Shown one piece after another: positions 1 to 15,738 of a stretch of 64,000 nt of DNA. The notes below the pieces were generated by a model, which saw nothing but the letters and a program-made list of their open reading frames with translations, ran no database searches and was not told the origin of the DNA. Position numbers and translations under genes: made by a program. This stretch comes from Sphingopyxis sp. Root154 (GTDB lineage: Bacteria > Pseudomonadota > Alphaproteobacteria > Sphingomonadales > Sphingomonadaceae): positions 722,618 through 786,617 of the forward strand of contig NZ_LMGI01000003.1 in NCBI RefSeq assembly GCF_001427105.1, read 5' to 3'. Numbering within the stretch: the first letter of the stretch is position 1; every line of letters begins with the position of its first letter.

Positions 1-354
1 GGCATCGTCCTCTACAACCCCGATCGCGAGAAGGTCCGCCTCGTCGCCGGCAAGGGCATCGAGGCTCGCGATGGCGACGGCCAGCCCCCGGTCGTGCAGG
101 ATGTGGATGTTGCCAGCATCGGCGGCTGGCGCAGCGGCCTGCTCGTCTACAACGGCACGCCCCTCGCCGTCGTAGCCGAGGATTTGAAGCGCACCGCCGG
201 AATGCAAGTCCGTATCGCGCCCGAAGCGAGCGACCTGTCGTTCCGCGGCGCATTGATCATCGACAAGAACCGGAACCGCACGATCGCCGATCTTGCCGCG
301 CTGTCGGGAACGAGGGCCGAGCGGCAAGGTGATGGCTGGATATTGACCCGCTGA
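1..354 (+). CDS. FecR-family anti-sigma regulator, C-terminal part
   Basis: The reading frame is open from base 1, so the N-terminus lies outside the window. The visible ~117 residues match the C-terminal half of FecR proteins: a Gly-Gly-Trp/Leu-X-Tyr segment, a PLA-X-V-X-E-X-L helix and a final strand before the stop. FecR proteins sit in the inner membrane and relay receptor occupancy to an ECF sigma factor. The gene stops two bases before the start of a TonB receptor that carries an STN signalling domain, which fits a sigma/FecR/receptor surface-signalling unit. The sigma gene would lie to the left. The assignment to FecR is good; the signal sensed is unknown. Confidence 0.8.
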   Translation, partial: GIVLYNPDREKVRLVAGKGIEARDGDGQPPVVQDVDVASIGGWRSGLLVYNGTPLAVVAEDLKRTAGMQVRIAPEASDLSFRGALIIDKNRNRTIADLAALSGTRAERQGDGWILTR

Positions 355-356
355 CC

Positions 357-2864
357 ATGCGCCCGCGCCTTTCCCTTGCCGCAGCAGCGATAGCGCTGTG
401 CCTGCCCGCGCAGGCGCAGGCGGCAGAGGAGCGCGCGTTCGACGTGCCCAAAGGCAGCCTGTCGACGGCGCTGCCCGTCATCAGCCGGCAGGCCGGGGTC
501 AGCATCAGCGTCGGCGACGCGAAACTGTGGCAGGGCCGCGTCAAACCGGTGCGCGGGCGGATGAGTGTCGAAGAGGCGATCCGGCGCCTGCTCGCGGGGT
601 CCGACGCGCGCGCCGTGCGGGTCAGCGCGACGAGCTGGCGTATCGAGCGCCGCCCTGCCGCCTTCCGCGCCGCACGCCCGGCACCGGCAACGCGACACAC
701 CCCCCAGCCAAGGGCACGCGAGCCTTCGCAAGATGCGGTCGCCGCGGCGCGGGACGAAATCATCGTCACCGCGTCGAAGACCGACCTGCCCCTTTCGCAC
801 TTCGCCGGCGTCGTCACCAAATTGGATGGCGGCGATTTGGCGTTTGGCGGTGAGCGCGGGATGGATTCGATTCTGTCGCGAACCGCCACCGTCTCCTCGA
901 CCCACCTGGGTTCGGGGCGCAACAAGCTGTTCATTCGCGGCATTGCCGATTCCAGCTTCACCGGCCCGACGCAATCGACCGTCGGCCAGTATCTCGGAGA
1001 CATCCGGCTCAGCTACAATGCGCCCGACCCGGATCTCCGCCTCTACGACATCGACAATGTCGAAATCCTCGAAGGGCCGCAGGGCACGCTTTATGGCGCC
1101 GGGTCGCTCGGCGGGATCATCCGTGTCATCCCGAAAGCCCCCGACCCGCGCGAAATGACGGTTCAGGCGATCGCCGGCCTCTCGATCACCCAGCACGGCG
1201 ACCCCGGCGGGGACATCGCCGCCATCGCCAATATCCCCGTCAGCGAGAACGGGCACGCGCTGCGCCTTGTCGGCTATATGCTCACCGACGGCGGCTATAT
1301 CGACAATCCGCTGCGCGGCCAGAACGACGTCAACCGCGTGCATGTCCGCGGCGGGCGCGGCACCTTCCGGTTCGAGGCGGGCGATGACTGGACGATCGAT
1401 CTGGGCGGCGTCTATCAGGCGATCACCTCCGATGACGCCCAATATGCCGACAAGAATGGCGCGCCGCTCACCCGCAACTCGATGGTCGAACAGAATGCGA
1501 CCGCGCGCTACGGCATGGGCACGGTCGTCGTGATGAAGGATTGGGACGATCTGCATTTCCAGTCGTCCAATGCCTATATCGATCACCGCCTGTTCGAACG
1601 CTTCGACGCCAGCCTGCCCGAAGCGCGGCAAGGAACCGACATGTCCAACGGAGGCGTATCCGCTCCGCCGTCGGTTGGAACAGTCGATGTCGAGCGCCTG
1701 TTCGCGCCAATCCAGGTCATTCCGCTGAACGATGTTCCACGCGTGCTCGACCAGCATAATGCGACACGCATGTTCGTCAGCGAAAACCGCTTGTCGCGCC
1801 CATATCGCGACGGCCTTGGCTGGGTTGTCGGCGCCAGCTTTATCGACAATCGCGCGCGGCAGGACCGCGAATATGGCTATGGCCCGCTGCGCGCAATCCT
1901 GCCCGGCGTGACGAACAAGATCACGGAATTCACCGGCTATGCCGAAGCAACCGTCGAAGTGATGCCCGACCTGATCGCGTCGGGCGGCGTCCGCCTGTCA
2001 CATGCGAAGCTCGGCGGCGCGGCCGAAGGCGTGTCCTTTGCCCTGGCACAGGCAAATCGTGCGACGACCGCTTCACGCAAAGAAACCGACCTGCTGCCGT
2101 CCTTCTCGCTGCTCGCGACGCCGCTCCACAATGTCCGGCTCTATGCGCGCTATCAGGAAGGTTTTCGCCCCGGCGGACTCGCGGTCGATGGCAATTTCGT
2201 GCGGCGTTTCCTCAACGACCAGGTCCGCACCTGGGAAGCGGGAATGCGTTTCGGCGACAAGGGGCAGAACCTGCTCGACGCCAGCATTTCGATTTCGCAC
2301 AGCCGCTGGCGCAACATTCAGGCCGACTTCATCGACAGCACGGGCTTCCCGACCACCGCCAATATCGGTGACGGCCGCATCACGAGCCTCTCGGGGGCGG
2401 TCGCCATGCGGCCGACCGCTGCGCTGACCTTCGAACTTGGCGCGGTCTACAACCATAGCCGGGTCGACGATCTCGCGCCGCAGATTCTGCCGGTGTTCGA
2501 CGCCGCACCGGGCCGTCTCGGACGCATCCCCAATGTCGCGAGCCACGCGGTACGCGGGTCGGTCAACTACGCGACCATGATCGGCGACGAGGATTTCCGC
2601 GTGAACGGCTGGGCCAATTATATCGGCCCGTCGCGGCTCGGAATCGGGCCGGTGCTCGGCGAAAGCCAGGGTGACTATATCGATACCGGGGTTGCGATGC
2701 GGGTGGGCAACGAACGTCGCGGCCTGTCGCTTACGCTCACAAATCTCTTCGATTCGCGTGGCAATCGCTTTTCGCTCGGAACACCGTTCCTTGAGGGGAA
2801 TGAGGGCTTCCTCACCCCGCTTCGCCCGCGCACGCTCCGGATCGCCGTCGACGTCGCCTATTAA
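357..2864 (+). CDS. TonB-dependent outer-membrane receptor with STN domain
   Basis: 835 aa. A signal peptide spans about residues 1-23. An STN domain (about 28-97) is the periplasmic part that contacts FecR-type proteins. A TonB-box-like DEIIVTASK lies at about 133-141, followed by the plug (about 145-265) and a 22-strand-type barrel. The chain ends in an aromatic residue (VAY), as usual for barrel proteins. The ATG follows the FecR stop by two bases, so the two are co-transcribed. Such receptors import ferric siderophores or other large ligands using TonB energy; the ligand cannot be read from the sequence. A short hairpin at 2902-2916 lies between this gene and the convergent acyl-CoA dehydrogenase. 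Confidence 0.9.
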   Translation: MRPRLSLAAAAIALCLPAQAQAAEERAFDVPKGSLSTALPVISRQAGVSISVGDAKLWQGRVKPVRGRMSVEEAIRRLLAGSDARAVRVSATSWRIERRPAAFRAARPAPATRHTPQPRAREPSQDAVAAARDEIIVTASKTDLPLSHFAGVVTKLDGGDLAFGGERGMDSILSRTATVSSTHLGSGRNKLFIRGIADSSFTGPTQSTVGQYLGDIRLSYNAPDPDLRLYDIDNVEILEGPQGTLYGAGSLGGIIRVIPKAPDPREMTVQAIAGLSITQHGDPGGDIAAIANIPVSENGHALRLVGYMLTDGGYIDNPLRGQNDVNRVHVRGGRGTFRFEAGDDWTIDLGGVYQAITSDDAQYADKNGAPLTRNSMVEQNATARYGMGTVVVMKDWDDLHFQSSNAYIDHRLFERFDASLPEARQGTDMSNGGVSAPPSVGTVDVERLFAPIQVIPLNDVPRVLDQHNATRMFVSENRLSRPYRDGLGWVVGASFIDNRARQDREYGYGPLRAILPGVTNKITEFTGYAEATVEVMPDLIASGGVRLSHAKLGGAAEGVSFALAQANRATTASRKETDLLPSFSLLATPLHNVRLYARYQEGFRPGGLAVDGNFVRRFLNDQVRTWEAGMRFGDKGQNLLDASISISHSRWRNIQADFIDSTGFPTTANIGDGRITSLSGAVAMRPTAALTFELGAVYNHSRVDDLAPQILPVFDAAPGRLGRIPNVASHAVRGSVNYATMIGDEDFRVNGWANYIGPSRLGIGPVLGESQGDYIDTGVAMRVGNERRGLSLTLTNLFDSRGNRFSLGTPFLEGNEGFLTPLRPRTLRIAVDVAY

Positions 2865-2914
2865 AGCGACGCCGACAATTCTCCCAAATCAATCGCCCCC
2901 CGACGGCGGAGCCG

Positions 2915-4054
2915 TCAGTCGTTAAGCGTGATCCGCTCATAGCGGTCCATATGATAATCGTGGCTACCAAACTGGCCCTCGATCATCGTCGCGCGCTTGA
3001 AATAATGGCCGATCGCCAGTTCCTGCGTGATGCCGATGCCGCCATGCGTCTGGATCGCATTCTGCCCGACGAAGTTGGCGCCGCGCGCAACCTTTGCCTT
3101 CGCGGCCGAGACCGCCGCCATGCGCTCGTTCGCGGGCAGGCCCAGCTTCAACGTCCCCATGATCGTCATCGAGCGCGCCTGTTCGACCTCCATGAACATG
3201 TCGACCATGCGGTGCTGCAGCACCTGGAATTTCGCGATCGGCACACCAAACTGCTTGCGTTGCTGGGTATATTCCAACGTGCCTTCATGCAGCTTCTGCA
3301 TCACGCCGGTCGCTTCGGCGCACACCGCAACGGTCGCCTCGTCGACGATCTGTTCGATCAGCGGCAGGCCGGTGCCTTCGCCGCCGAGCAGTGCATCGCC
3401 CGGGATCGCGACGTTCTCGAAATAGATTTCCGATGCGCGGCCGCCATCGACCGTCGGATAGTCACGGCGGACGATGCCCGGCAGGTTCGCGTCGATCAGG
3501 AACAGCGACACACCGTCGCGGTCGCGCGCATTGCCGCCGGTGCGCGCCGTGACAAGCAGATGCGTCGCCCAGGGTGCGGCATAGACAACCGATTTATGCC
3601 CGCTCAGCACATAGCCCGCGCCATCCTTCTTCGCGCTTGTGCGCAGGTTCGCAAGGTCGTAGCGGCCCTGCGGCTCCGCGTAGGCGAAGGCGATGATCGC
3701 ATTACCCGCGATGATCTCGGGGATCATCGCATCGGCCTGCGCGCCGCCGACAGCCTTGAGCGCACCGCCCGCGATGACGACGGTCGGAAGATAAGGTTCG
3801 ATCCCGATGACCTTGCCGAGTTCCTCCATCACGATCGCATTTTCGAGCGCGCCGCCGCCAAGGCCGCCATGCTCTTCTGCGAAAGGCGCGCCCAGCATGC
3901 CGAGATCCTGCGCGAGCGCGGTCCAGATCGCCGGATCGCGCCCGCTATCGCTATTGATGAACTTCTGGCGCGTTTCGAAATCATAGGTGTCGCCGAGGAA
4001 ACGGGCGAGCGTGTCGCGGATCATGTCCTGCGTTTCGGTGTAGGTGAAATCCAT
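2915..4054 (-). CDS. Acyl-CoA dehydrogenase, small-type partner
   Basis: 379 aa with the ACAD fold: N-terminal helical domain, central beta domain (FAYAEPQG near 135-145) and C-terminal helical domain with an HGGIGIT motif. ACADs oxidise acyl-CoA to enoyl-CoA with FAD, passing electrons to ETF. The C-terminus reads MIEGQFGSHDY in place of the usual YEGTxQIQ, so the catalytic base region is atypical. It lies 101 bases downstream of a second, larger ACAD on the same strand, a layout typical of two-gene ACADs (for example PimC/PimD or steroid-degrading heteromers). Substrate unknown. An inverted-repeat pair fills the gap between the two genes. Confidence 0.88.
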   Translation of the reverse strand: MDFTYTETQDMIRDTLARFLGDTYDFETRQKFINSDSGRDPAIWTALAQDLGMLGAPFAEEHGGLGGGALENAIVMEELGKVIGIEPYLPTVVIAGGALKAVGGAQADAMIPEIIAGNAIIAFAYAEPQGRYDLANLRTSAKKDGAGYVLSGHKSVVYAAPWATHLLVTARTGGNARDRDGVSLFLIDANLPGIVRRDYPTVDGGRASEIYFENVAIPGDALLGGEGTGLPLIEQIVDEATVAVCAEATGVMQKLHEGTLEYTQQRKQFGVPIAKFQVLQHRMVDMFMEVEQARSMTIMGTLKLGLPANERMAAVSAAKAKVARGANFVGQNAIQTHGGIGITQELAIGHYFKRATMIEGQFGSHDYHMDRYERITLND

Positions 4055-4065
4055 TTTTTATCCCC

Positions 4066-4148
4066 GTCGCCCCCGCGTAGGCGGGGGCCGCTGTAGGTTT
4101 ATGCTGCGGCGTCAGGTCGGTGGAGGCCCCCGCCTTCGCGGGGGCGAC
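4066..4148. repeat. Inverted pair of 24-bp palindromic repeats
   Basis: Two 24-base arms, 4066-4089 and 4125-4148, are reverse complements with one mismatch, separated by 35 bases. Each arm is itself nearly palindromic (CCCCCGC then GCGGGGG). This is the layout of REPIN-type elements (two REP units in opposite orientation). It sits between two co-directional ACAD genes and could form a large hairpin in their mRNA. Confidence 0.8.
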
Positions 4149-4155
4149 GCACTGC

Positions 4156-5349
4156 TCAGAGACCCAAAACCATCTTCGCGATGATGTTGCGCTGAATCTC
4201 GTTCGACCCGCCATAGATCGTCGTCTTGCGCATGTTGAAATAGGTCGGCGCGGCGCGATGGGCATAATCGGGCCCGATCGGATGCTCGTTATCTCCCTCG
4301 CCGAAGCCACGGAAATAGGGCGCGCCATAATGGCCGACGGCTTCGAGCGTCAGTTCGGTCAGCCGCTGCTGGATTTCGCTGCCCTTGATTTTGAGCAAGC
4401 TCGATTCCGGCCCCGGACCGCGATTTGCGTTGGGGCCGGCAAGGCTGCGCAACTCGGTGAATTCGAGCGCCGCCAGGTCAACTTCGAGCTCAGCCACCTT
4501 GCGCTTGAAGAAGGCGTTGGCGAGCAGCGGCTTGTCGCCGTCGAGTTCGGTTCGGGCGATCGCCTTCACCTTCTCGATCCCGCGCTTCGACGCCGCGACG
4601 CCGGCGATGCCGGTGCGTTCGTGCGCAAGCAGGAACTTGGCACAGGTCCAGCCCTTATTCTCATCGTAAACCCGCTGCGATTGCGGCACGCGAACATCTT
4701 CGAGCCACACTTCGTTGACTTCATGCTCGCCGCCCAATGTGATGATCGGGCGCACGGTGATGCCGGGCGATTTCATGTCGATCAGGAGGAAGCTGATGCC
4801 TTCCTGCTGCTTCGCTTCCTTGTCAGTCCGGACAAGGAAAAAGCCCCAGTCGGCATGCTGCGCGAGCGTCGTCCAGGTTTTTTGCCCGTTGACGATATAA
4901 TCGTCGCCATCGGCAACCGCGGTGGTGCGGAGCGAGGCAAGGTCCGAACCCGAACCGGGTTCCGAATAGCCCTGGCACCACCAATCCTCACCCGACAGAA
5001 TGCGCGGCAGGAAATGGGCTTTCTGCTCGGGGGTGCCAAAGGTGTAGATCACCGGGCCGACCATCGCGAGCCCGAAGGGCATCAGGCGAATGCAATCGGC
5101 GCGCGCGGTTTCCTCCGACCAGATGAAACGCTGCGTCGGCGTCCAGCCGGTGCCGCCATATTCGACCGGCCATGCGGGCGCGATCCAGCCCTTTTTGTAC
5201 AGGATCTTGTGCCAGGCGAGGAAATCCTCCTTGGACATCTCTTCGCCCTCATCCTGCTTATCGCGCAGGTCGGCGGGGTAATTTTCGGCGATGAAGTCGC
5301 GCACTTCCTGCTGGAAGGCGAGATCTTCGGGGCTGAATTCCATGTCCAT
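4156..5349 (-). CDS. Acyl-CoA dehydrogenase, large-type partner
   Basis: 397 aa from the ATG at 5349, which has GGGAG seven bases upstream; an in-frame TTG at 5370 is less likely. Features are an N-terminal helical domain, GYSEPGSGSDLA FAD/substrate motif (about 135) and a C-terminal IYGGSNEIQ motif. In canonical ACADs this last motif is YEGT with Glu as catalytic base; here the position is Gly, so the base lies elsewhere or in the partner. First gene of a two-ACAD operon, with a plausible promoter 22 bases upstream. Probably acts on an unusual acyl-CoA (branched, dicarboxylic or sterol side-chain). Confidence 0.9.
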   Translation of the reverse strand: MDMEFSPEDLAFQQEVRDFIAENYPADLRDKQDEGEEMSKEDFLAWHKILYKKGWIAPAWPVEYGGTGWTPTQRFIWSEETARADCIRLMPFGLAMVGPVIYTFGTPEQKAHFLPRILSGEDWWCQGYSEPGSGSDLASLRTTAVADGDDYIVNGQKTWTTLAQHADWGFFLVRTDKEAKQQEGISFLLIDMKSPGITVRPIITLGGEHEVNEVWLEDVRVPQSQRVYDENKGWTCAKFLLAHERTGIAGVAASKRGIEKVKAIARTELDGDKPLLANAFFKRKVAELEVDLAALEFTELRSLAGPNANRGPGPESSLLKIKGSEIQQRLTELTLEAVGHYGAPYFRGFGEGDNEHPIGPDYAHRAAPTYFNMRKTTIYGGSNEIQRNIIAKMVLGL

Positions 5350-5377
5350 CACGAATCTCCCATTGGGCAATGGCGCA

Positions 5378-5406
5378 CTTATACTGAGCGCTCACCTTTA
5401 CGTAAA
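5378..5406 (-). promoter_or_regulatory. Candidate promoter with palindromes upstream of ACAD pair
   Basis: On the minus strand TTTACG (5406-5401) and TATAAG (5383-5378) are spaced by 17 bases, giving a start about 22 bases before the ACAD ATG. The -35 box is inside a perfect 10-base palindrome TTTACGTAAA (5397-5406), and an 8-base palindrome GAGCGCTC (5386-5393) lies in the spacer, so a repressor site overlapping the promoter is likely. Regulator unknown. Confidence 0.4.
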
Positions 5407-5521
5407 CGGTAAGTTGTCGCTTGCAACCTTCCTTGCCCCAATGATTGCGCTTAACATCCCGGCTTGTCCAGCACGCGCAGCTGCCCTCCGGCAACACGGC
5501 TATCGAACGCGGAAGCTGGTT

Positions 5522-6445
5522 TTAACCGGGTCGGTGCGTGACGAGCACCACCGCGCCGTCGCTGGCATAAGGTCCGCGGACCTCCGCTATCGTCAGGGCA
5601 ACGTCGACGGCCGAACCGTCGCGCGTCACCATCTGCGATGCGATGCGTGCGGGGGCGCCCGACCGAAAGACCGATTCGAGCGCCTCGACAAAGGCCGGCC
5701 GCTGCCCGACCGCGAGCAGCGCCGAAAAGCGGACACGCCGGATCGCTGCAGCATCCACCCCGAGCAGGTCGGTCAGCATGGCGTTCGCCGCCTCGACCGT
5801 TTCGCGCACCGAGATGCGGGCGTGGCCGATGCCGCCATCGATCTCGACGGCGTCGAGCATTGCCTGCCGCATATCGCCGGCGGCAAAGCCATCGATCGCG
5901 TCGCTGACATCGCGCAGGACGATCGCGCCGCCGACCGGCAGGGGAACAAGGTCGACATGCAGCCATTGCCGCGGGCGGAGCATGCCGGGGAGGTCGCCCG
6001 AGAATCGCTCGCGATGGTCGAGCAGCCGATTGATGTGATGAAGGATCAGGCTGTCCCGGAGCCCCGGCACCGCCACCGTCAACGCCTCCCCGACCAGACC
6101 GGCGGCCGGGACCTCCAGCATATCCGACGCCGCGGGGTTGAGCGCGGCGACACGCCGTTGCCGGTCGATCAGGATCACGCCATCGCGAACCGATTCCACG
6201 AGAGCGGCAAGCGAGGATTGCAGGATGTCGGAAGCCGCCGCGACCTCCCGCGCAACGTCGCCGTCGAGACGGCGATAGTCGTCGAGCGAAATCAGCACAT
6301 GCGCATCCTTGCCGTGGTGCGTCACGACAACGGGCTTGCGCGCAGACTGTAGCCGCCAATTGGCGAAGCCGCGGATAAAATCGGCCGCCGAGACGCGCTG
6401 TGGTTCCTGTGCCGTTGCCACCATATCCCCCTGCAAGCCGGTCAT
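5522..6445 (-). CDS. Phd/YefM-like domain fused to two PAS-like domains
   Basis: Up to 307 aa; ATG starts at 6445 and 6424 both follow an AGGGGG run at very short spacing, so the start is uncertain. Residues about 18-60 resemble the Phd/YefM antitoxin fold: an amphipathic helix, then KPVVVTHHGKDAHVLISLDDYRRL-type strand-turn-strand-helix (the GK-x-AxVLIS and EEY/DDY hallmarks). Residues about 73-182 and 198-305 look like PAS domains (DGVILID and NPAASDMLEV in the first). There is no kinase, cyclase or GGDEF output, so the Phd part may be the output, binding DNA or a partner. No toxin gene is adjacent. Soluble cytoplasmic protein. The fusion is inferred from residue patterns only. Confidence 0.7.
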   Translation of the reverse strand: MTGLQGDMVATAQEPQRVSAADFIRGFANWRLQSARKPVVVTHHGKDAHVLISLDDYRRLDGDVAREVAAASDILQSSLAALVESVRDGVILIDRQRRVAALNPAASDMLEVPAAGLVGEALTVAVPGLRDSLILHHINRLLDHRERFSGDLPGMLRPRQWLHVDLVPLPVGGAIVLRDVSDAIDGFAAGDMRQAMLDAVEIDGGIGHARISVRETVEAANAMLTDLLGVDAAAIRRVRFSALLAVGQRPAFVEALESVFRSGAPARIASQMVTRDGSAVDVALTIAEVRGPYASDGAVVLVTHRPG

Positions 6446-6541
6446 CCCCCTGTTCTTATAACCCGGCGGCGGCCTGCATTCGATCTGGAAGGGATCAATC
6501 GGCGGGCTGTCGCGTCCGGAACGGTGCCATTGCGCGAGCGA

Positions 6542-8185
6542 TCAAACGAGCCGCGCTCTCCCGCAGCGCAGCGCGTTGACCCGTGTATCGGCCTGCCCGA
6601 CATGCACCCCGAGTAGCCCGGTAAGGTCGGACAAGACGGTGTCCAGTACGGGCGCAGCGAGCGCAACCGTCTCGCCGACCACTGTCGTCAGCGCCTTCAG
6701 ATTGAGGACAAGTCCGAGGACATTGACGTCGAGCTCCATCCGGTCCGAAAGCGATTTCGCGGCGCCCGCGACGAGGCCGGTGCTCGACACGGTCTTCACC
6801 TTGCCGTCGTCGATCTCGGCGCGCGAAAAGGCGACCGGCTTTTCATTGAGGTCCGACAGGATGAGTTCCGCCTCCGCATCGACGCTGACGAGCGGCAATT
6901 TGACGACGCGCGCCGGCCCCGGATCCAGCGGGCGCTTCATATCCTGAAAATCGCTGTCGGGCACCGTTCCGATCGCCACCATCGCGGGGGAGGTCACGAC
7001 GCCAAGCGACACCGCGGCTGTGCTGTTCGCGCGGCAATCGATGCCCGTGATCCGCGCAGACGCCGACCCGAGTTCGGCGAGCACTGGGATATGGACGCTG
7101 GCGAGCGGCGTCGCGACGCGCGTATCGATCTTCAGCCGCACCTGCGCGGTGCGGACAATGACATCATTGGTGTCGGTCACCGCGATCAATGGCGAGTCCA
7201 CCGGCGGCTCGCCGATCATCAGCGCGATATTGACCCCCGAGCCGCCGGGCAGGCTGCCCGCCAGCGACAGGTCGACCTGCCGGTTCGCGTTGCCGAGCAG
7301 CAGCATCGTGCGCAGCAGGCTGAGCGCGTTGACCTTCACCGGATTCGCCGCATCGACGCGGATGCTGGACGACCGCGGGCCAAGGTCGATCGCACGCGAC
7401 GGCAGCAGGGTGCGCGGCAGCGCGCGATCCGCGATATGCTCAAGCGCGGTCGCCGCCTGCCCGTCCGACGCATTGGCGAGCGCCGTCACGACCTGCGGCA
7501 ACGTCGCCTGCGCGTCGAGCGTCTGACCAAAGGTCAACACGTCGGCGTCGAGTTCGGCCCGCAGCGCGTCGGAGAAAGCCAGCAGATCGATATCGGTACT
7601 CGCGAGCGCATTATAGTCCATCACCGACAGGTTGACCTGGCTGCCGGTGAGGCTCGACAGCAGCGCATTGGGGAGGCCGCCGTTCAGCGCCGCGACGCGC
7701 GATCCGAGCGAAAAGGCCGCATAACCGCGTCGCGCCCCGGTTGCTGTCGCACGAATGATGCTGTCCTGCCGGCCCGTCAGAAAGCTGCCGAAGAACAGCG
7801 GACGATCGCGCGTCAACGTGATGCGCACCGCGTTCGGCGACGCGCCGCCGCCGGCAAAGCGCTGTTCAGCCTGGATCGACGGATCGGCGGTGTAGGTTCC
7901 GGGGTCGAGCACCGCGATACGAATGCCGCAATCGCAATTGGCTGCGATGATCCGCTCCGCCGCCGCCCGCTCCTCGCCGGGCCGCCCCGCCGCCGCCGCC
8001 GCCGCCGCCGCCATTGCCGCGGCATCTGCGATGCCCTGCAACTTACGGCGGTCGAGATAAAGCGAGCCGAGATCGACCGCGAACGCTGCCGCCCCGATCA
8101 GCATCGTCATGCCGAACGCCGTCGTGATGCTGATGCTGGCGCCGCGATGGCGGACAAGGCGGCGAAGCAGGGACAGGATCGTCAT
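6542..8185 (-). CDS. TadG-like pilus-assembly/secreted protein
   Basis: 547 aa from ATG 8185 (a TTG at 8191 would overlap the upstream stop as TTGA). One N-terminal membrane helix at about residues 15-38 is followed by LYLDRRKLQGIADAAA, the conserved TadG-type segment, and then a long extracytoplasmic region rich in Ala, Val and Asp without recognised catalytic motifs. TadG proteins are pseudopilin-like parts of Flp/Tad pilus systems. It directly follows a TadE-type gene on the same strand, so the two form an operon, but no TadA/B/C or CpaF motor genes are in the window. The job may be in a Tad apparatus encoded elsewhere. Confidence 0.75.
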   Translation of the reverse strand: MTILSLLRRLVRHRGASISITTAFGMTMLIGAAAFAVDLGSLYLDRRKLQGIADAAAMAAAAAAAAGRPGEERAAAERIIAANCDCGIRIAVLDPGTYTADPSIQAEQRFAGGGASPNAVRITLTRDRPLFFGSFLTGRQDSIIRATATGARRGYAAFSLGSRVAALNGGLPNALLSSLTGSQVNLSVMDYNALASTDIDLLAFSDALRAELDADVLTFGQTLDAQATLPQVVTALANASDGQAATALEHIADRALPRTLLPSRAIDLGPRSSSIRVDAANPVKVNALSLLRTMLLLGNANRQVDLSLAGSLPGGSGVNIALMIGEPPVDSPLIAVTDTNDVIVRTAQVRLKIDTRVATPLASVHIPVLAELGSASARITGIDCRANSTAAVSLGVVTSPAMVAIGTVPDSDFQDMKRPLDPGPARVVKLPLVSVDAEAELILSDLNEKPVAFSRAEIDDGKVKTVSSTGLVAGAAKSLSDRMELDVNVLGLVLNLKALTTVVGETVALAAPVLDTVLSDLTGLLGVHVGQADTRVNALRCGRARLV

Positions 8186-8187
8186 GT

Positions 8188-8631
8188 TCAATCCACCGGC
8201 AATTCAAACGTCGCTCGGGCACGGATGACGTTGCCCGGTGACGGAACGAAGCTTGATCGCAGGAAACTGTCCTCAGGCGCGGTGAAAGTTACCGCGACGG
8301 TGATCGCCTCGGTCGTTTCGGACACGGCGACACTGTGCGCGCCGTCGACCGCCTGCAGGCTCCGACCGACGGCGCGCGACGCGACCGCGCTGCGATCGGC
8401 CGCGTCGAGACCGACGATCGACGCGCGGGCGCCGTCGTTTGCCGCCTGCTGAACGCTATGCGCGAGCATGAAATACTGACCGTAGACCAATACCCCCATC
8501 AGCAACGCGAGGAGCAGCGGCAGCACCAGCGCCATTTCGACGATGGCGGCGCCACGCTCCCCGCGCGCCAGGGTAAGACCCGTCAGGGCAATTTTGCGGA
8601 CGCGCCGCGGAAGTCGGATGGAACCTGCCAT
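8188..8631 (-). CDS. TadE-family pilus-assembly protein
   Basis: 147 aa. A basic N-terminus is followed by RGERGAAIVEMALVLPLLL at about 23-41, the TadE hallmark (a Gly-x-x-x-hydrophobic-E prepilin-like motif entering a membrane helix). The remainder is a small periplasmic domain. TadE is a minor pseudopilin processed by the TadV peptidase. No clear ribosome binding site precedes the ATG at 8631. The stop lies within a few bases of the TadG-like start, so the pair is translationally coupled. Partner machinery is not in the window. Confidence 0.8.
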   Translation of the reverse strand: MAGSIRLPRRVRKIALTGLTLARGERGAAIVEMALVLPLLLALLMGVLVYGQYFMLAHSVQQAANDGARASIVGLDAADRSAVASRAVGRSLQAVDGAHSVAVSETTEAITVAVTFTAPEDSFLRSSFVPSPGNVIRARATFELPVD

Positions 8632-8660
8632 GCCGGCAGAATGGCCGCCCGCAAATGAAA

Positions 8661-8686
8661 GCGGCGTCGAGAGAGCCCGACGCCGC
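8661..8686 (-). terminator. Hairpin, probable terminator of yghU
   Basis: A perfect 9-bp stem (8661-8669 with 8678-8686) with an 8-base loop. On the minus strand it follows the yghU stop by 115 bases and is trailed by TTTCATTT; on the plus strand it is trailed by TTTT. It separates yghU from tadE. Confidence 0.45.
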
Positions 8687-8801
8687 TTTTGCGTATTTTG
8701 CAGGATTTTTTCGCGCCTGAACCGGTCTGATTTGGTGGCGCGCCGCCTCTTGTTGAAGAACCGCTAATTTCGGCGCGGCCGCTTCTAACGGATAATGTGA
8801 A

Positions 8802-9677
8802 TTATTCGGCGTCCTCCAACTTGTCCTGCGTGCGCAATTCGAAGTCCGACGCGTCGTGCCGCTCGCGCAGCTGGCTCGCCGGATCGCCCGTCACGCGGTT
8901 GACCATCCGCCCGCGCTTCACCGCCGGGCGCGTCGCGATCTGGTCGGTCCAGCGCTGGACATTCTTATAGTCATCGACCTGCAGGAATTCGCCGGCGTCA
9001 TAAACGAGACCTTTGGCGAGCGCGCCATACCAGGGCCAGATCGCCATGTCGGCGATCGTATAATCGGCACCCGCAATATATTCGCTTTCCGCAAGGCGGC
9101 GATCGAGCACGTCCATCTGGCGCTTCACTTCCATCGCATAGCGGTTTATCGGATATTCCTGCTTCGTCGGCGCATAGGCGTAGAAATGGCCAAAGCCACC
9201 ACCGAGGAACGGCGCGCTACCCATCTGCCACATCAGCCAGGACAGCACCTCGGCACGCTTCGCGGTTTCGGTTGGCAGGAAGGCGCCGAATTTCTCGGCG
9301 AGATGGATCAGGATCGCGCCCGATTCGAAAACACGGATCGGCTCGGCCCCGCTGCGATCGACTAGCACGGGGATCTTGCTGTTCGGATTGGCCGCGACAT
9401 AGCCACTCGAAAACTGGTCGCCTTCGCCGATATTAATCAGCCACGCGTCATATTCGGCGCCACCATGCCCCGCCGCGAGCAGTTCCTCGAGCATCACGGT
9501 GACCTTCACCCCATTAGGCGTCCCAAGCGAATAGAGCTGCAAGGGGTGCTTGCCGATCGGCAGCTCCTTGTCATGCGTCGGTCCCGCGATGGGCCGGTTG
9601 ATATTGGCGAAACGCCCGCCGCTTTCCTTGTCCCAAGTCCAGATTTTCGGCGGCACATATTCGCTATTGTCGGTCAT
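8802..9677 (-). CDS. yghU: Glutathione S-transferase / disulfide-bond oxidoreductase YghU
   Basis: 291 aa, closely resembling E. coli YghU over its full length: the N-terminal WTWDKESGG, the thioredoxin-like domain with LYSLGTPNG, the NPNSKIPVL cis-Pro region and RVFESGAILIHLAEKFG, then the all-helical domain with APFLGGGFGHFY and a C-terminal ERHDASDFE. YghU binds two glutathiones and reduces organic hydroperoxides and disulfides. The ATG has AGGAG six bases upstream. TATAAA on the minus strand (9703-9698) is a possible -10 box. Cytoplasmic, stand-alone gene. Confidence 0.92.
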   Translation of the reverse strand: MTDNSEYVPPKIWTWDKESGGRFANINRPIAGPTHDKELPIGKHPLQLYSLGTPNGVKVTVMLEELLAAGHGGAEYDAWLINIGEGDQFSSGYVAANPNSKIPVLVDRSGAEPIRVFESGAILIHLAEKFGAFLPTETAKRAEVLSWLMWQMGSAPFLGGGFGHFYAYAPTKQEYPINRYAMEVKRQMDVLDRRLAESEYIAGADYTIADMAIWPWYGALAKGLVYDAGEFLQVDDYKNVQRWTDQIATRPAVKRGRMVNRVTGDPASQLRERHDASDFELRTQDKLEDAE

Positions 9678-9751
9678 GGAGAACTCCTGGGCTGATTTTT
9701 ATACTGACCGGTAACTTAAGTAGCGATTGCCGGTTGTCCACCCTCCCCGGC

Positions 9752-10930
9752 TCAAATAATCTTTGCCGCCCGCAAAGCCGAAATGGCTTCGCCGTCATAA
9801 CCGAGCTCGGCGAGGATCGCGTCGCTATGCTCGCCGACTTGCGGTGCGCGTTGCGGATCAACCTTGTCCCTGTCGGACAAGCGGATCGGCGTGCGGATGA
9901 CCGGCACGGCGCCAGCGGCGCCCGGATAGTCGACCGGCTCGACCAGCCCCATCGCCCTTACCTGCGGCTGCGCCAGCGCTTCACCCACCTGCAACACCGG
10001 CGCCGCGGGCACCCGTCCGGCGGCCAGTTCAGCGATCGCGTCTTCGTTCGTCCGTTCGATGCACCAGCGCTGCATGATCGCGCTCAGTTCCTCGCCATTG
10101 TCGCCGCGCAAAATGTCGCTGGCATACAGCGGATCGTCCACCAATTCGGGCCGTCCGACCAGTTCGCACCAGCGCGCGAAGATGGGCGCGCCGACAATCT
10201 GGGTGAGTATCCAGCCATCGCGCGTACGGAACACATCGGTCGGCCCCGAGCTGAAAGCGCGGTTGCCGATCGGCTGGCGATCGATGCCGTTCAGCGCATG
10301 GTCGATCGTCAGCGCGTTCGACATCGCGAGCGCGGTGCCCAGCAGCGACCCCGAAACGCACTGCCCCTTCCCCGTCGTCTCGCGCTCGCGCAGCGCAAGC
10401 ATGACGCCAAACGCGCAATGGAGCGCGGTTCCGAAATCGACATAATTGACCTGCGCGCGATAGGGCTGGTCAGCTGTGCCTGTAAGGTGCACCGTTCCCG
10501 ACATCGCCTGCCCCACCGCGTCGAACCCGACGCGGCTCGCGAGCGGCCCTTCGCTACCGAATGCCGATGCGGTCGCGAGAATGATGCGCGGGTTGATCGC
10601 AGCGAGACTGTCGTAATCGAGCCTCAGCTTGACCAGCGCATCGTGCGGCAGGTTGGCTATCACGACATCGGCGGTTTCGACCAACCGGCGAACGATCTCG
10701 CGCCCCTCGGGGCTACCGGGCTTCAGCGTCAGGCAGCGTTTGGCGCGGTTCATCTGCATGAACATCGCGCCCGACCCATCCGCGGCGACCGGCACGGTAT
10801 ATCGATCGTCATTGCCCCCCGGCGCCTCGATGCGGATGACGTCAGCGCCATAATCGGCGAGCAACGCCGCGCAATAGGGACCGGCAATATAGCGGCCGAA
10901 ATCCAGTACCTTGATTCCCTGCAACGGCAC
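9752..10930 (-). CDS. Class III CoA-transferase (CaiB/BaiF family)
   Basis: 392 aa from GTG 10930, preceded by GGGAG at eight bases; a TTG at 10945 is also in frame. The N-terminal LDFGRYIAGPYCAALLADYGADVIR contains the family Asp/Gly-rich nucleotide loop; the catalytic Asp of the family aligns with VDFGTALHCAFG. These enzymes move CoA between carboxylic acids and typically prepare a substrate for beta-oxidation or racemisation. It lies next to yghU on the same strand (74 bases apart) and close to an ACAD pair, which suits acyl-CoA catabolism. Substrates unknown. Confidence 0.87.
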   Translation of the reverse strand: MPLQGIKVLDFGRYIAGPYCAALLADYGADVIRIEAPGGNDDRYTVPVAADGSGAMFMQMNRAKRCLTLKPGSPEGREIVRRLVETADVVIANLPHDALVKLRLDYDSLAAINPRIILATASAFGSEGPLASRVGFDAVGQAMSGTVHLTGTADQPYRAQVNYVDFGTALHCAFGVMLALRERETTGKGQCVSGSLLGTALAMSNALTIDHALNGIDRQPIGNRAFSSGPTDVFRTRDGWILTQIVGAPIFARWCELVGRPELVDDPLYASDILRGDNGEELSAIMQRWCIERTNEDAIAELAAGRVPAAPVLQVGEALAQPQVRAMGLVEPVDYPGAAGAVPVIRTPIRLSDRDKVDPQRAPQVGEHSDAILAELGYDGEAISALRAAKII

Positions 10931-11071
10931 GCATCGCTCTCCCAATCCCGTTCTTTCAACCGGGCTAGCAGCCGCTTGTCGACCCTGCCAGTGCCTTCAT
11001 CGAAAGCTGCCGCTTGCATGTTCGCGGGCGAACCATATGGTCGGCACATAATTTCAAACAGGGATAATTTC

Positions 11072-14000
11072 ATGGCGCGCTTCGCTCTCGCCCTTGCGGC
11101 GACTTTGGCTTGTTCAACCTCGGTCTGGGCGCAGAGTGCGCCCGCTTCTCCTCCGGCCGCCGACACGAAACCCGACAAGTGGGACGTCAACGCCCCGCCG
11201 GGCCTCGCGACGCGGAAGGTCCAACTCGCGGTCGACGAGGGCAGCTGGATGAATGTCGACGTCGCGCCCGACGGCCGGACGATCGCGTTCGACCTGCTCG
11301 GCGACATCTATACGATGCCGATCGAGGGCGGCACGCCGACGCGTATCGCGGAAGGGCTCGCTTATGAACATCAGCCGCGTTTCTCGCCCGACGGCAAGCG
11401 TATCGCCTTTGTCTCCGACCGCGCGGGCGGCGATAATATCTGGCTGATGAACCGCGACGGCAGCGACAAGAAGCAGATCTCGAAGGAAGATTTCCGCCTG
11501 CTCAACCAGCCGAGCTGGAGCCCCGACGGGCAGTTCATCGTTGCCAAGAAGCATTTCACGACGGGCCGCTCGCTCGGCACCGGCGAGGTGTGGCTATACC
11601 ATGTCTCGGGCGGCGCGGGCGTGCCGCTGGTCAAGAAGCCGAACGAGCGCCACCAGAAGGAGCTCGGCGAGCCGATCTTCGCCGCCGACGGCAAGAGCGT
11701 CTTTTACACGCGCAACGTCACCCCGGGGCCGATCTTCGAATATGCGCAGGACAGCAACACCGACCTCTTCCACATCGAACGCTACAGCCTCGAGGATGGC
11801 GAGGTCAGCACCGCGGCTTCGGGTCCCGGCGGCGCGGTCCGCCCGACGCCCTCGCCCGACGGCAACCGCCTCGCCTTCGTGCGCCGCGAGGGGACGCAGT
11901 CGAAACTCTATGTGAAGGACCTCGCCTCGGGCGCCGAGAAAAAGGTCTATGACGCGCTCGATCAGGATATGCAGGAAACCTGGGCGGTCACCGGCGTCTA
12001 TCCGAACATGGCGTGGACCCCCGACAGCCGCTACATCCTCTTCTGGGCCGGCGGCAAGCTGCGCCGCGTGAGCGGTGCCGGCGGCGACGCGCGTATCATC
12101 CCGTTCAGCGTCAACGACGATCGCACGATCGTCGATGCGACGCACCCGGCAGTCGAAGTTGCCCCCGACAGCTTCGCGACCAAGATGCCGCGCTGGGCCG
12201 AGGTGTCGCCTGACGGCCGCAGCGTCGTCTTCGAAACGCTCGGCAAGCTATGGGTCAAGCCCGCGACCGGGGGCAGCGCACGGCGGCTGACCGCGGCCAA
12301 GGACGACGCGATGGAGCTCTGGCCGAACTGGTCGCGCGACGGCAAGTCGCTCGTCTTCGTGCGCTGGACCGACGGCGGGATGGGCGAAATCCATGTCGTC
12401 GGCGCCGGCGGCGGCGCCTCGCGCAAGCTGACTGCCACCCCCGGCCATTATGCCGAACCGCGCTTCTCGCCCGACGGCAAGACGATCGTGTTCGAACGGC
12501 GCGGTAGCGGGGGTCTCACCTCGGCGCGCTGGAGCGAGGATCCCGGCGTCTATCGCATCGCCGCAAGCGGCGGCACCGCCGAGCGGATCGCAGCCGACGG
12601 CGCCAAGCCGCAGTTCGCTTCAACCAGCGACCGCGTCTTCATGGTCACCGCGAGCGACGGCAAGAGCCAGCTCGTCAGCACCGACCTCCACGGCCAGGAC
12701 AAGCGCGTCCACGCCAATGGCGAACTGGTCAGCGACTATGAAATCTCGCCCGACGGCCGCACGTTGGCATTCCGGCAGAACTACGACGCCTATGTCACCC
12801 CGCTGATGCCCGGCGGACAGGACGTCTCGCTCGGCACCAAGAGCGGCGCGCTCCCCGTCACGCGGGTCAGCGGCAGCGGCGCAGAATATATGCACTGGTC
12901 CGACGGCGGCCGCCGCCTGCACTGGAGCCGCGGCGCCACCTTGTTCAGCGCCGATCTCGCGAGCCTCTTCACCAATGCCCCCGCCGACGATAAAGCGCCC
13001 AAGTTCACCCCGCCGACCGACGGCGTATCGCTGTCGATGACGCAGGCGGCGTCGAAGCATAAGGGCGTTGTCGTTGTCACCGGCGCGAAGATCGTGACGA
13101 TGGCCGACAAGGACGGCGGCGTGATCGAGAATGGCACGATCGTCATCGACGGCGACCGTATCACCGCCGTCGGCCCGGCGGGCGCGATCACCGTGCCCAC
13201 GGGCGCAGTGACCGTCGATGCGGCCGGCAAGACGATCGTTCCCGGCTTCGTCGACGCGCATGCGCACGGCTCGCACGGCGACGACGAACTGGTGCCCCAA
13301 CAGAATTGGTCGGAGATCGTCAACCTCGCGATGGGCACCACGACGAGCCACAATCCCTCGTCGCGCGCATCGGAAATCTTCGTTTCGTCTGAAATGCAGC
13401 GCGCCGGGCTGATCCTCGCGCCGCGCATCTTCTCGACCGGCGAGGTGATCTATGGCGCCAAGGCGGCGGGCGTTTATGCCGAGATCAATGGTTATGACGA
13501 CGCGCTCGCCCACGTTCGCCGCCTGAAGGCGCAAGGTGCGCATAGCGTCAAAAACTACAACCAGCCGCGCCGCGACCAGCGACAGATGGTCGTGAAGGCG
13601 GCGCAGGTCGAGGGCATGACGGTCGTGCCTGAGGGCGGCTCGCTGTTTACACAGGACGTCTCGCTGATCCAGGACGGCAATTCGACCGTCGAGCACAATG
13701 TCCCGCTCCACATTTTCTACAAGGATCTGGTGCAGCTGTGGGGACAGACGCAGGTCGATTACACCCCGACGCTCGTCGTGACCTATGGCGGACCCGCAGG
13801 CGATCCCTATTGGCGCGCACATACCAATGTGTGGGAGCACCCGATCCTGTCGCGCCATGCACCGCCGACCGAGCTCGCCGCGAACAACAAGCGCCGCGTG
13901 ATCGCGCCCGAAAGCGATTATGTCGACGATGATTCGGCACGCGAGGCGGGCAAGATCGCCGCAGCGGGGCGCATGGTCTCGATCGGCGCGCACGGCCAGC

Positions 14001-14314
14001 AATCGGGTCTCGGCGCGCATTGGGAAATCTGGTCGTTCGTTCGCGGCGGGTGGAGCAATATCGACGCCCTTCGCGCCGCGACGATCATGCCTGCAACGTC
14101 ATTGGGCTACGCAAAGGATGTCGGATCGCTCGAGGCCGGGAAGCTCGCCGACCTCTTGATACTCGACGCCGATCCGACGCAGGACATCCGCAACACCGAC
14201 AAAATCCACCGCGTGATGCTCGGCGGGCGCCTCTACGATCCGCTGACGATGAACGAGGCCGAGACGGGAACGCGCAAGCGTCAGCCCTATTGGTGGGAAG
14301 CCGACAAGCCCTGA
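11072..14314 (+). CDS. Secreted TolB-like beta-propeller/amidohydrolase fusion
   Basis: 1080 aa from ATG 11072, behind AGGGAT. A signal peptide ends near residue 21 (VWAQS). Residues about 60-640 hold repeated SPDGK/IAF blades of a TolB/DPP-like propeller; residues about 670-1060 form an amidohydrolase barrel with the VDAHAHGSHG metal motif, a Lys in SVKNYNQP, VEHNVP and GAHGQ further on, and a late GYAKDVGSLEAGKLADLLILD strand. Such proteins are periplasmic hydrolases; some relatives act on peptides or cyclic amides. The open frame extends further upstream but only through sequence antisense to the CoA-transferase, so that part is discarded. Divergent from the CoA-transferase. Substrate unknown. 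Confidence 0.88.
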   Translation: MARFALALAATLACSTSVWAQSAPASPPAADTKPDKWDVNAPPGLATRKVQLAVDEGSWMNVDVAPDGRTIAFDLLGDIYTMPIEGGTPTRIAEGLAYEHQPRFSPDGKRIAFVSDRAGGDNIWLMNRDGSDKKQISKEDFRLLNQPSWSPDGQFIVAKKHFTTGRSLGTGEVWLYHVSGGAGVPLVKKPNERHQKELGEPIFAADGKSVFYTRNVTPGPIFEYAQDSNTDLFHIERYSLEDGEVSTAASGPGGAVRPTPSPDGNRLAFVRREGTQSKLYVKDLASGAEKKVYDALDQDMQETWAVTGVYPNMAWTPDSRYILFWAGGKLRRVSGAGGDARIIPFSVNDDRTIVDATHPAVEVAPDSFATKMPRWAEVSPDGRSVVFETLGKLWVKPATGGSARRLTAAKDDAMELWPNWSRDGKSLVFVRWTDGGMGEIHVVGAGGGASRKLTATPGHYAEPRFSPDGKTIVFERRGSGGLTSARWSEDPGVYRIAASGGTAERIAADGAKPQFASTSDRVFMVTASDGKSQLVSTDLHGQDKRVHANGELVSDYEISPDGRTLAFRQNYDAYVTPLMPGGQDVSLGTKSGALPVTRVSGSGAEYMHWSDGGRRLHWSRGATLFSADLASLFTNAPADDKAPKFTPPTDGVSLSMTQAASKHKGVVVVTGAKIVTMADKDGGVIENGTIVIDGDRITAVGPAGAITVPTGAVTVDAAGKTIVPGFVDAHAHGSHGDDELVPQQNWSEIVNLAMGTTTSHNPSSRASEIFVSSEMQRAGLILAPRIFSTGEVIYGAKAAGVYAEINGYDDALAHVRRLKAQGAHSVKNYNQPRRDQRQMVVKAAQVEGMTVVPEGGSLFTQDVSLIQDGNSTVEHNVPLHIFYKDLVQLWGQTQVDYTPTLVVTYGGPAGDPYWRAHTNVWEHPILSRHAPPTELAANNKRRVIAPESDYVDDDSAREAGKIAAAGRMVSIGAHGQQSGLGAHWEIWSFVRGGWSNIDALRAATIMPATSLGYAKDVGSLEAGKLADLLILDADPTQDIRNTDKIHRVMLGGRLYDPLTMNEAETGTRKRQPYWWEADKP

Positions 14315-14405
14315 GTTATCCCATCACCCTGCGGCGGGCCGTAATTTTGTGACGAGAGGGTTGCAAGACGTTCGGACCGCCGCTAGGGGCGTCTCCTCTC
14401 AGCGA

Positions 14406-14495
14406 GGAGAGTTGGCTGAGTGGTCGAAAGCGTCGCACTCGAAATGCGAAGTGCCGGCAACGGTACCGAGGGTTCGAATCCCTCACTCTCCTCCA
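14406..14495 (+). tRNA. tRNA-Ser (anticodon CGA)
   Basis: 90 bases with encoded CCA. The acceptor GGAGAGT pairs with ACTCTCC; the anticodon stem TCGCA/TGCGA encloses CTCGAAA, giving anticodon CGA (codon UCG). A long variable arm is present, as expected for serine, and the T arm GAGGG-TTCGAAT-CCCTC is regular. The discriminator base is T rather than the usual G73. A short T-run follows the CCA. Confidence 0.95.
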
Positions 14496-14523
14496 TTTTT
14501 CTACAATTCGACCACAGCAAGCC

Positions 14524-14544
14524 GCCCCGGCGCACAACCGGGGC
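14524..14544. terminator. GC hairpin between tRNA-Ser and the Yip1-family gene
   Basis: A perfect 7-bp stem GCCCCGG (14524-14530) with CCGGGGC (14538-14544). There is no T-run on either side, so termination would be weak or Rho-dependent. Confidence 0.3.
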
Positions 14545-14559
14545 AGCTCGCGGGGGCCG

Positions 14560-15183
14560 TTACCTGACGGTAACGAGCGACGGCGCGGCGAGCGTCGCGA
14601 CGACTGCGCCGACGATCAGGAACAACACGATATAAACGATGACCACGACCACCGTGTAGCCGAGCGCCTTGTCTTCTGGCGCCTTCATCAGCACCGGCAG
14701 GCCGAGATACAGCAGATAGAGCCCGTAGAGCGCGAACAAGAGGCCGATCACGGCGAGCGCGGGCAATATCCCGAAAATACCGCCGACCCAGCCGGCGGTC
14801 GCCGAATAGGCCGCGACCTTCAGCGCCTGGACCTGATTCTTCTGGCCGCCGAAGTTCGTCGCGAGGCCGTCGATGACCAGCGCGAGGATGAAGATCGTCG
14901 CCAGCGAGAGACCGTAAGAGACGATCGCCGACACCAGCGCGCCCACTAGCGGCGGATGATAGGTCACGCCGAGCATGGTGAAACCGAAAACCTGCCCGCC
15001 GATGAACCCGGCGAGCGGGCCGATCGCCGCCAGTACCAGCACATAGGGCACATAGATGGATTGCGTTGTCGCCGGCTCGGCCGCGATGATCGGCCATGTC
15101 TCTTTGGGCTTGAGAAGGATGTCCTTCGCGCGCTGGATGATGCCCGAAGCCGGGCCGGAGATATTGGGTGGTACGTCCGTCAT
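14560..15183 (-). CDS. Yip1-family integral membrane protein
   Basis: 207 aa from ATG 15183, which has AGGGGAG seven bases upstream; the open frame continues further but without a site. A short cytoplasmic N-terminus (RAKDILLKPKETWPIIAAEP, the family signature near 20-40) precedes five to six membrane helices. The family is widespread in alphaproteobacteria and not functionally characterised. Convergent with tRNA-Ser and divergent from hspQ. Confidence 0.75.
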   Translation of the reverse strand: MTDVPPNISGPASGIIQRAKDILLKPKETWPIIAAEPATTQSIYVPYVLVLAAIGPLAGFIGGQVFGFTMLGVTYHPPLVGALVSAIVSYGLSLATIFILALVIDGLATNFGGQKNQVQALKVAAYSATAGWVGGIFGILPALAVIGLLFALYGLYLLYLGLPVLMKAPEDKALGYTVVVVIVYIVLFLIVGAVVATLAAPSLVTVR

Positions 15184-15328
15184 AATGCGTCTCCCCTGAT
15201 CGTGCGGCCCACAACCCGAATGGGATATGCAAAAGCCAGAAGAGCACTTTAGCCCGCATCGCCAATGCATCTGTAACGCTGATCACAGTCCGATTCGGCA
15301 AACCACAGCCGAATTGGAATGTAACGGA

Positions 15329-15356
15329 CTTGAAACGTGCGTAAACTGCCATAGAT
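15329..15356 (+). promoter_or_regulatory. Candidate sigma-32 (RpoH) promoter of hspQ
   Basis: CTTGAAA (15329-15335) and CCATAGAT (15349-15356) are spaced by 13 bases and resemble the heat-shock sigma consensus. The expected start point falls at or within a few bases of the hspQ ATG (15364), and no Shine-Dalgarno sequence is visible, suggesting a leaderless or nearly leaderless transcript. Confidence 0.4.
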
Positions 15357-15363
15357 TGACCCT

Positions 15364-15738
15364 ATGACGCCCGAATCCACTTCCGAACTTCCCGCCACCG
15401 TTACTGCACCGCTTATCGGCCGCGCGCGTTTCGCGCCGGGCGATATCGTGCGCCACCGGATGTTCGACTTCCGCGGCGTCGTATTCGACATCGACCCGGT
15501 CTTTGCGAACAGCGACGAATGGTATGAAGCGATCCCTGAGGATATCCGCCCGGCGAAGGAGCAGCCCTATTACCATCTGCTCGCCGAAAACGGCGATTCG
15601 TCGTACATCGCCTATGTCAGCCAGCAGAATCTGGTCGCCGATGGCGACAGCGGACCGATCGACCATCCGCAAATCGACGCGATGTTCGAGGGTCTGGAAC
15701 GCGGCCGCTACCGCGTCCGCGCCATCCATCGCCACTAA
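15364..15738 (+). CDS. hspQ: Heat shock protein HspQ
   Basis: 124 aa. The core from about residue 20 (RFAPGDIVRHRMFDFRGVV) through EWYEAIPEDIRP, QPYYHLLAEN and YVSQQNLV matches HspQ/YccV, a small protein that in enterobacteria binds hemimethylated DNA and acts as a Lon specificity factor. The 18-residue N-terminal extension is low in complexity. Heat-shock control is suggested by the promoter just upstream. Convergent with the ABC permease; the stops are six bases apart. Confidence 0.9.
   Translation: MTPESTSELPATVTAPLIGRARFAPGDIVRHRMFDFRGVVFDIDPVFANSDEWYEAIPEDIRPAKEQPYYHLLAENGDSSYIAYVSQQNLVADGDSGPIDHPQIDAMFEGLERGRYRVRAIHRH

Follow-up and report, generated by a model that had tools for sequence, protein, structure and literature searches.

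A putative one-component regulator with a Phd/YefM-type head and two PAS domains, linked to surface-attachment genes in Sphingopyxis and other Sphingomonadaceae

Our analysis of a 64,000-nt stretch of Sphingopyxis sp. Root154 DNA (the window) suggests that a minus-strand gene at 5522–6421 encodes a one-component PAS transcription regulator with an antitoxin-type DNA-binding head, a reading that we consider likely from comparison of sequences. The protein carries an N-terminal Phd/YefM-type domain followed by two PAS domains; its head is conserved, its gene co-occurs with a tadE/tadG-like pair, and the promoters of that pair contain a motif that is associated with the presence of the regulator gene. 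The regulator probably switches surface-attachment genes (pilus-like genes and adhesins) on or off. The idea of an unusual one-component regulator had been put forward in an earlier note made from the letters of this DNA; it gains support from the strict co-occurrence with surface genes and from the shared promoter motif, with DNA binding as a prediction.

Read from its probable start, GTG 6421 (or ATG 6424), the regulator has 299 aa, and the residue numbers R17, F19, H35 and G37 used below refer to this form. The earlier note had drawn the gene as a minus-strand ORF at 5522–6445; the gene and its strand stand, but the start at ATG 6445 is probably not the one used, because a GGGGG box, read as a ribosome-binding box, lies just upstream of GTG 6421 and homologues begin at the same point; in the comparison of homologues, the reading frame upstream of GTG 6421 varies between species. 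The Phd/YefM-like domain occupies residues 8–54 (6260–6400, minus strand), as supported by PF02604, TIGR01552, an hhalign comparison with a canonical antitoxin, and conservation; it is followed on the same strand by a first PAS domain at residues 75–174 (5900–6199; PF08448) and a second at residues 208–284 (5570–5800; PF13426). Two PAS-like domains had been called from residue patterns, and profile searches recovered both: PAS_4 (Pfam) matches residues 83–182 of the ATG 6445 ORF at E 1.6e-11, and PAS_9 (Pfam) matches residues 216–292 of that ORF at E 8.2e-6 and 26.5 bits, just below its cut-off of 27, the second domain being confident in the AlphaFold model. In 27 family members, each scanned alone, PAS_4 was found at E ≤ 0.01 in 26 and PF02604 in 15.

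The Phd/YefM call on the N-terminal region, likewise made by eye, is backed by three kinds of profile comparison: PF02604 matches residues 36–62 of the ATG 6445 ORF at 29.8 bits (E 5.2e-7), exactly at its cut-off of 29.8, and scores 29.9 bits when the protein is read from the GTG, the match spanning only residues 28–54 of the head in 299-aa numbering; TIGR01552 (phd_fam, NCBIfam) exceeds its cut-off (21.7 vs. 20.8 bits); and a profile of 26 family N-termini aligned by hhalign over 50 columns, with probability 98.2 and pair E 4.7e-14, with a canonical Phd/YefM antitoxin (81 aa; 36.7 bits on PF02604) encoded elsewhere in the same genome. The same head profile aligned with E. coli YefM over 28 columns at probability 78. 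The canonical 81-aa antitoxin gene lies at 1495–1740 of locus L001 (G000:C2), and an apparent PIN toxin frame can be seen by eye after it.

Within Sphingopyxis, no part of the regulator is as conserved as the head: across 30 aligned sequences, 28 of 44 positions are invariant at 9–52, vs. 45 of 247 from position 53 onward. R17, F19 and G37 are invariant in all 26 heads compared across genera. A paper on YefM (PMC4803016) reports that this antitoxin binds DNA at sites with a TGTACA core through basic residues of its N-terminal domain, of which R10 and R31 are essential; in our alignment YefM R31 falls on H35 of the regulator, and YefM R10 lies one position off the invariant R17 rather than in the same column. 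The AlphaFold model gives the head the order strand-helix-helix-strand-strand-helix (E-H-H-E-E-H) at poor confidence (pLDDT block means 43–77), and the PAS domains are far more confident. Searches of the PDB returned RelB, YefM and Phd only at E 0.025–0.94 with the family profile, and weak matches only, mainly PAS proteins, with the single protein; a defence library searched with the regulator gave no match. Pizza propellers, the top PDB matches of the profile, were discarded as repeats of a short VYVTDHG string. That PF02604 only just reaches its cut-off could be taken to mean that the protein is a degenerate sensor, i.e. a PAS dimer with a non-functional antitoxin remnant; we find this hardly credible, as a remnant would not be expected to be the best-kept part of the protein in Sphingopyxis and to be recognisable across many genera.

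Proteins of this build constitute a Sphingomonadaceae family of about 300 aa. A single-protein search matched 27 of 60 genomes (own genome included), all of them in the genus (27 of 36) and none among the 24 genomes from elsewhere in the order; the family profile matched 66 of 396 genomes, 8 of them only outside the head; and a head-only profile matched 55 of 396 genomes of the order, some of them through short antitoxin frames. The nine loci obtained from a contig search are Sphingopyxis or Sphingomonadaceae records. Outside Sphingopyxis, 26 of the 27 loci read encode Phd-PAS-PAS proteins of about 300 aa, distributed over many genera of Sphingomonadaceae; the frame matched at L089 is not a Phd-PAS protein, and that locus was left out of the 26. 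Two or three paralogues per genome occur in G073, G214 and G252, and within Sphingopyxis in G019 and G425.

In the window, a TadG-like partner gene (6542–8191, minus strand; 549 aa; PF13400 and PF09977) lies upstream of the regulator on the same strand, and overlaps by 4 bases with tadE (8188–8631, minus strand; 147 aa; PF07811). The pair carries the TadE and TadG-like domains known from Flp/Tad pilus loci; the immediate neighbours are GST and acyl-CoA dehydrogenase genes; more TadE/Tad matches are found on contig C2 of the same genome. In 80 genomes of the genus Sphingopyxis, the TadG-like gene occurs in 58 and the full-length regulator in 58, and the two sets are identical; with two truncated copies counted (G034 and G010), the regulator is present in 60. 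In G034 (L106/L028) and G010 (L029), the start of tadE runs in frame into the last PAS domain and an open frame of about 190 aa is left; the fusion is the scar of one deletion, in which the remainder of tadE was lost along with tadG, the head and the first PAS domain. Among 377 genomes of the order outside Sphingopyxis, 29 have a TadG-like gene, 43 the regulator and 23 both (odds ratio 63; all these co-occurrence figures ignore kinship and are inflated by genome relatedness). At most three TadG candidates and six regulator candidates were scored per genome, so absences of either can be misses. The TadG count leaves out seven weak matches (E 1e-48 to 1e-68); the regulator count excludes headless matches (G046, G165, G188, G202, G218, G235, G292 and G298) and includes G228, whose match begins at 31, and G372, which has an internal stop.

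The linkage extends to gene order. Outside Sphingopyxis, the tadE/tadG pair adjoins the regulator in 11 of the 26 loci, downstream on the same strand in 6, divergent in 4 and convergent in 1 (a 98-aa frame in the cluster-1 row L084 is not counted as TadG); given that the 42 genomes searched contain 2 to 10 TadE matches each, chance would not be expected to place the two side by side so often. At three loci (L074, L077 and L078) the regulator is divergent from a YadA-type trimeric autotransporter gene, and at one (L086) from an RTX-repeat gene. At seven of the 26 loci the regulator lies behind two genes, which in L079 are dnaG and rpoD, and L070, L083, L084 and L081 have other neighbours. Several Sphingomonas-like genomes have the regulator behind yqeY-dnaG-rpoD. 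At L081 (G351, 1–15501), it sits among gyrB, gcrA, ABC-transporter, aminotransferase and carbamoyltransferase genes, and a neighbourhood of this type holds a tadE/tadG pair in G365, G252 and G337; L081 may be a former tad-regulator site that has lost its tad genes.

A candidate operator, TGCAAAATACGCAAA, lies on the minus strand at 8688–8702, 56 bp upstream of the tadE ATG; it rests on a footprint, on recurrence in other genera and on an exact match in the own genome. It is the window's copy of a conserved 15-bp block, YGYAAAATACGCAAA-like, in an alignment of 17 Sphingopyxis tadE promoters (17 of 20 loci; L102, L104 and L108, in which no TadE was located, were left out). The motif matrix was built from 12 distinct Sphingopyxis sites, with dinucleotide shuffles of each promoter as the null. 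In other genera with the regulator adjacent, all 11 tadE promoters reach at least 11.5 bits and 9 of the 11 are at p < 0.05, vs. 5 at 11 bits or more and 9 at p < 0.05 among 142 control regions that lie upstream of other genes in these loci; the latter proportion (9/142) indicates that the shuffle null is roughly calibrated. A hand-picked motif, TTACGNAA, had occurred at 0.85 per kb vs. 0.32 in the remaining intergenic DNA; the footprint matrix took its place.

The motif strings in tadE promoters of other genera combine a spaced repeat with a dyad: CGNAA repeated at 9-bp spacing is present in 6 of 11 other-genera tadE promoters, 1 of 142 controls and 4 of 17 Sphingopyxis promoters; the dyad CGNAA-N-TTNCG is present in 5 of 11, 1 of 142 and 3 of 17, respectively; and a looser repeat, YGYAA-N4-YGNAA, is present in 13 of 17 Sphingopyxis promoters and 4 of 142 controls. 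TGTACA, the core of the YefM operator, was not among the palindromic hexamers and octamers enriched upstream of the regulator in the examined loci. The second exact own-genome match to the motif (G000:C1:770900-770914, L130) is beside what looks by eye like a yqeY-like gene. Between the candidate operator and tadE, the minus strand carries a strong hairpin followed by TTTCATTT (8661–8686), which may terminate transcription of the GST gene or act as an attenuator; the stretch 8632–8690, hairpin included, folds at z −5.0 vs. shuffles, and at L099 a hairpin-like inverted repeat is kept at the same place with different bases.

Presence of the motif follows that of the regulator gene. In non-redundant loci with the regulator adjacent, 8 of 9 tadE promoters have the motif at p < 0.05 (combined p 9e-10), vs. 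only 3 of 11 where the regulator is elsewhere in the genome (combined p 4e-4) and 0 of 6 in genomes without it (combined p 0.51); the non-redundant set drops L075 and L092 (kin of L073 and L091) and L129 (kin of L094; p 0.002). In a first set of five genomes with the regulator elsewhere, the tadE promoter motif was at p < 0.05 in 3; the tadE promoter of L117 has p 0.44–0.47. Upstream of the regulator itself, p values are 0.003, 0.017, 0.04 and 0.056 at the four tad-divergent loci, where the stretch is also the tadE promoter, 0.013 and 0.02 at two of three YadA loci, 0.017 at the RTX locus, 0.007 at L072 and 0.027 at L079; 19 of 27 rows (the 0.056 included, and the last row being the second copy in Sphingopyxis G019) have p > 0.05, and among rpoD-linked loci the motif is found in 1 of 7.

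These data bear on whether the motif might instead be the site of a general regulator (e.g. of iron or the cell cycle) or an effect of base composition, with the tadE/tadG linkage due to shared inheritance only. In the own genome, the motif pattern with one mismatch has 19 matches, many within genes, vs. 9 for the reversed pattern, which speaks for this alternative; and because the five high-scoring control rows include three (from two regions, in L072 and L077) beside genes that look PepSY-type by eye, a Fur-like box was considered, such boxes being expected beside genes for PepSY-type membrane proteins. The 9-bp-spaced CGNAA repeat, more than half of the tadE promoters against a single control, argues against a Fur-like box; the control regions score high far more rarely than the tadE promoters, all of which do; and the motif fails in all six tadE promoters scored from genomes that lack the regulator gene. 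We hold a general regulator or a composition effect to be decidedly unlikely.

The motif was also sought at genes outside the training set. Thirteen YadA genes away from the regulator were tested, of which four share N-terminal homology with the regulator-adjacent YadA genes; the motif is present in the promoters of three of these four (p 0.003, 0.007 and 0.007; genes 47–54% identical to that of G280) and missing in the fourth, G277b, which is the second YadA copy of G277 (39% identical; p 0.87, and 0.85–0.89 when repeated), as it is at the regulator-adjacent YadA gene of G277 (p 0.58). Only one of the nine other distant YadA genes has it (p 0.013). The own-genome pattern search further revealed a double-PilZ gene that is preceded by a triple 9-bp array. 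In Sphingopyxis, the motif reaches p < 0.05 in the promoter of this gene in 14 of the 20 genomes that carry the regulator vs. 3 of the 11 that lack it (score difference p 0.003; Fisher 0.028), a comparison that was suggested by the own genome and counts it among the 20. Six regulator-bearing genomes fall short of the threshold: L162 at p 0.066, and L171, L172, L174, L175 and L178, whose promoters look alike, at 0.12–0.21. Two of the three regulator-less genomes that keep the PilZ site are the deletion-scar genomes. The PilZ search covered 40 genomes, of which 10 were unscored (three without a match and seven with matches that were not fetched).

The statement that no toxin gene is nearby agrees with our scans: the neighbours scanned in the window encode the TadG-like protein, TadE, a GST, two acyl-CoA dehydrogenases and a TonB receptor, and four ORFs (89–353 aa) overlapping the regulator gene and a 79-aa ORF past its 3′ end have no Pfam match, in a scan that left out shorter ORFs there and a 430-aa ORF opposite an acyl-CoA dehydrogenase gene. 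None of 24 neighbour proteins scanned from other loci matched a toxin family of toxin-antitoxin systems. The protein could nevertheless be an orphan antitoxin or an adaptor whose Phd head contacts a protein partner, be it an unlinked toxin or a second regulator; the PAS domains would then gate the contact, and the motif would be read by some other transcription factor of the same surface genes. So extremely conserved a head fits contact with protein as well as with DNA, and YefM is reported to neutralise its toxin with a segment C-terminal to its DNA-binding domain (PMC4803016). However, it is this toxin-binding part of YefM that is replaced by PAS domains; with no toxin found near the regulator and the motif tied to the presence of the regulator gene, we judge the orphan-antitoxin or adaptor account unlikely, and favour a head that contacts DNA.

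The regulator differs in several respects from the known systems that it resembles. With Phd/YefM antitoxins (PF02604, TIGR01552; E. coli YefM, phage P1 Phd) it shares, by profile, the N-terminal domain; but it has 299 aa, with two PAS domains where antitoxins have a toxin-binding tail, stands beside no toxin gene that we could find, has a candidate site CGYAAATTNCGYAAA rather than TGTACA, and would act on other genes rather than on a toxin-antitoxin operon. MqsA of E. coli is described as an antitoxin whose regulation reaches other genes too, one of its sites lying upstream of the biofilm-formation gene csgD (PMC4803016). The likeness lies in this regulatory role of an antitoxin on other genes. 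MqsA, however, is still paired with its toxin, contains an HTH and lacks a sensor domain.

A Foldseek search with the AlphaFold model gave PpsR (4hh2) as best match (E 5.4e-14), then LOV-PAS, DosP and bHLH-PAS proteins, all of which we take to be PAS matches; at TM-scores of 0.28–0.39, the likeness to PpsR is one of PAS domains only. TIGR02040, the PpsR family model, matches 9 of 27 family members, and is absent from the matches of the window protein at E ≤ 0.01. The resemblance to the photosystem repressor PpsR/CrtJ consists in several PAS domains within a DNA-binding regulator; the DNA-binding HTH of PpsR is located at the C-terminus, whereas the regulator here has an N-terminal antitoxin-type head and no HTH family among the Pfam and NCBIfam matches of the window protein. 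The title of 4hh2 reads “without the HTH motif”. For ligand or redox sensing, which the earlier note had suggested, the sole pointer is the similarity of the PAS part to PpsR, and this likeness, by TIGR02040 and by Foldseek, may direct attention to a redox, light or haem signal. Eukaryotic bHLH-PAS factors (HIF, ARNT, AHR), many of which are among the Foldseek matches, have the same layout as the regulator, an N-terminal DNA-binding head and then two PAS domains; the analogy is one of layout only, since the heads are unrelated and common descent is not claimed.

We propose that the toxin-free Phd/YefM-type domain would dimerise and bind a motif near CGYAAATTNCGYAAA in the promoters of surface genes, with the tadE-tadG-like pair, a YadA-type adhesin family, an RTX protein and, in Sphingopyxis, the double-PilZ gene as putative targets; and that the two PAS domains, in place of the toxin-binding tail of the antitoxin, would sense a small molecule, redox state or light and relay that signal to the DNA-binding head. 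On balance, we incline slightly towards the broader view that a Phd/YefM domain was recruited as the head of a PAS-PAS protein, and spread in Sphingomonadaceae as a switch for a surface-attachment regulon made up of these genes, the TadE/TadG pair being an orphan one, that acts via 9-bp-phased CGNAA-like repeats. Sensors joined to DNA-binding domains are an already known kind of protein; among the literature matches listed (titles and abstract starts, with few subscription papers and no bioRxiv), we recognised no report of such a protein or regulon.

In conclusion, our reading, if true, would represent a new design for gene switches in bacteria: an antitoxin domain that has parted from its toxin and now reads DNA on behalf of a sensory regulator. 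The decision of sphingomonads to build surface structures, which is poorly studied, would thereby gain a candidate operator, targets and loss-of-gene controls, and the TadE/TadG-like pair would gain a regulator together with a testable signal input.
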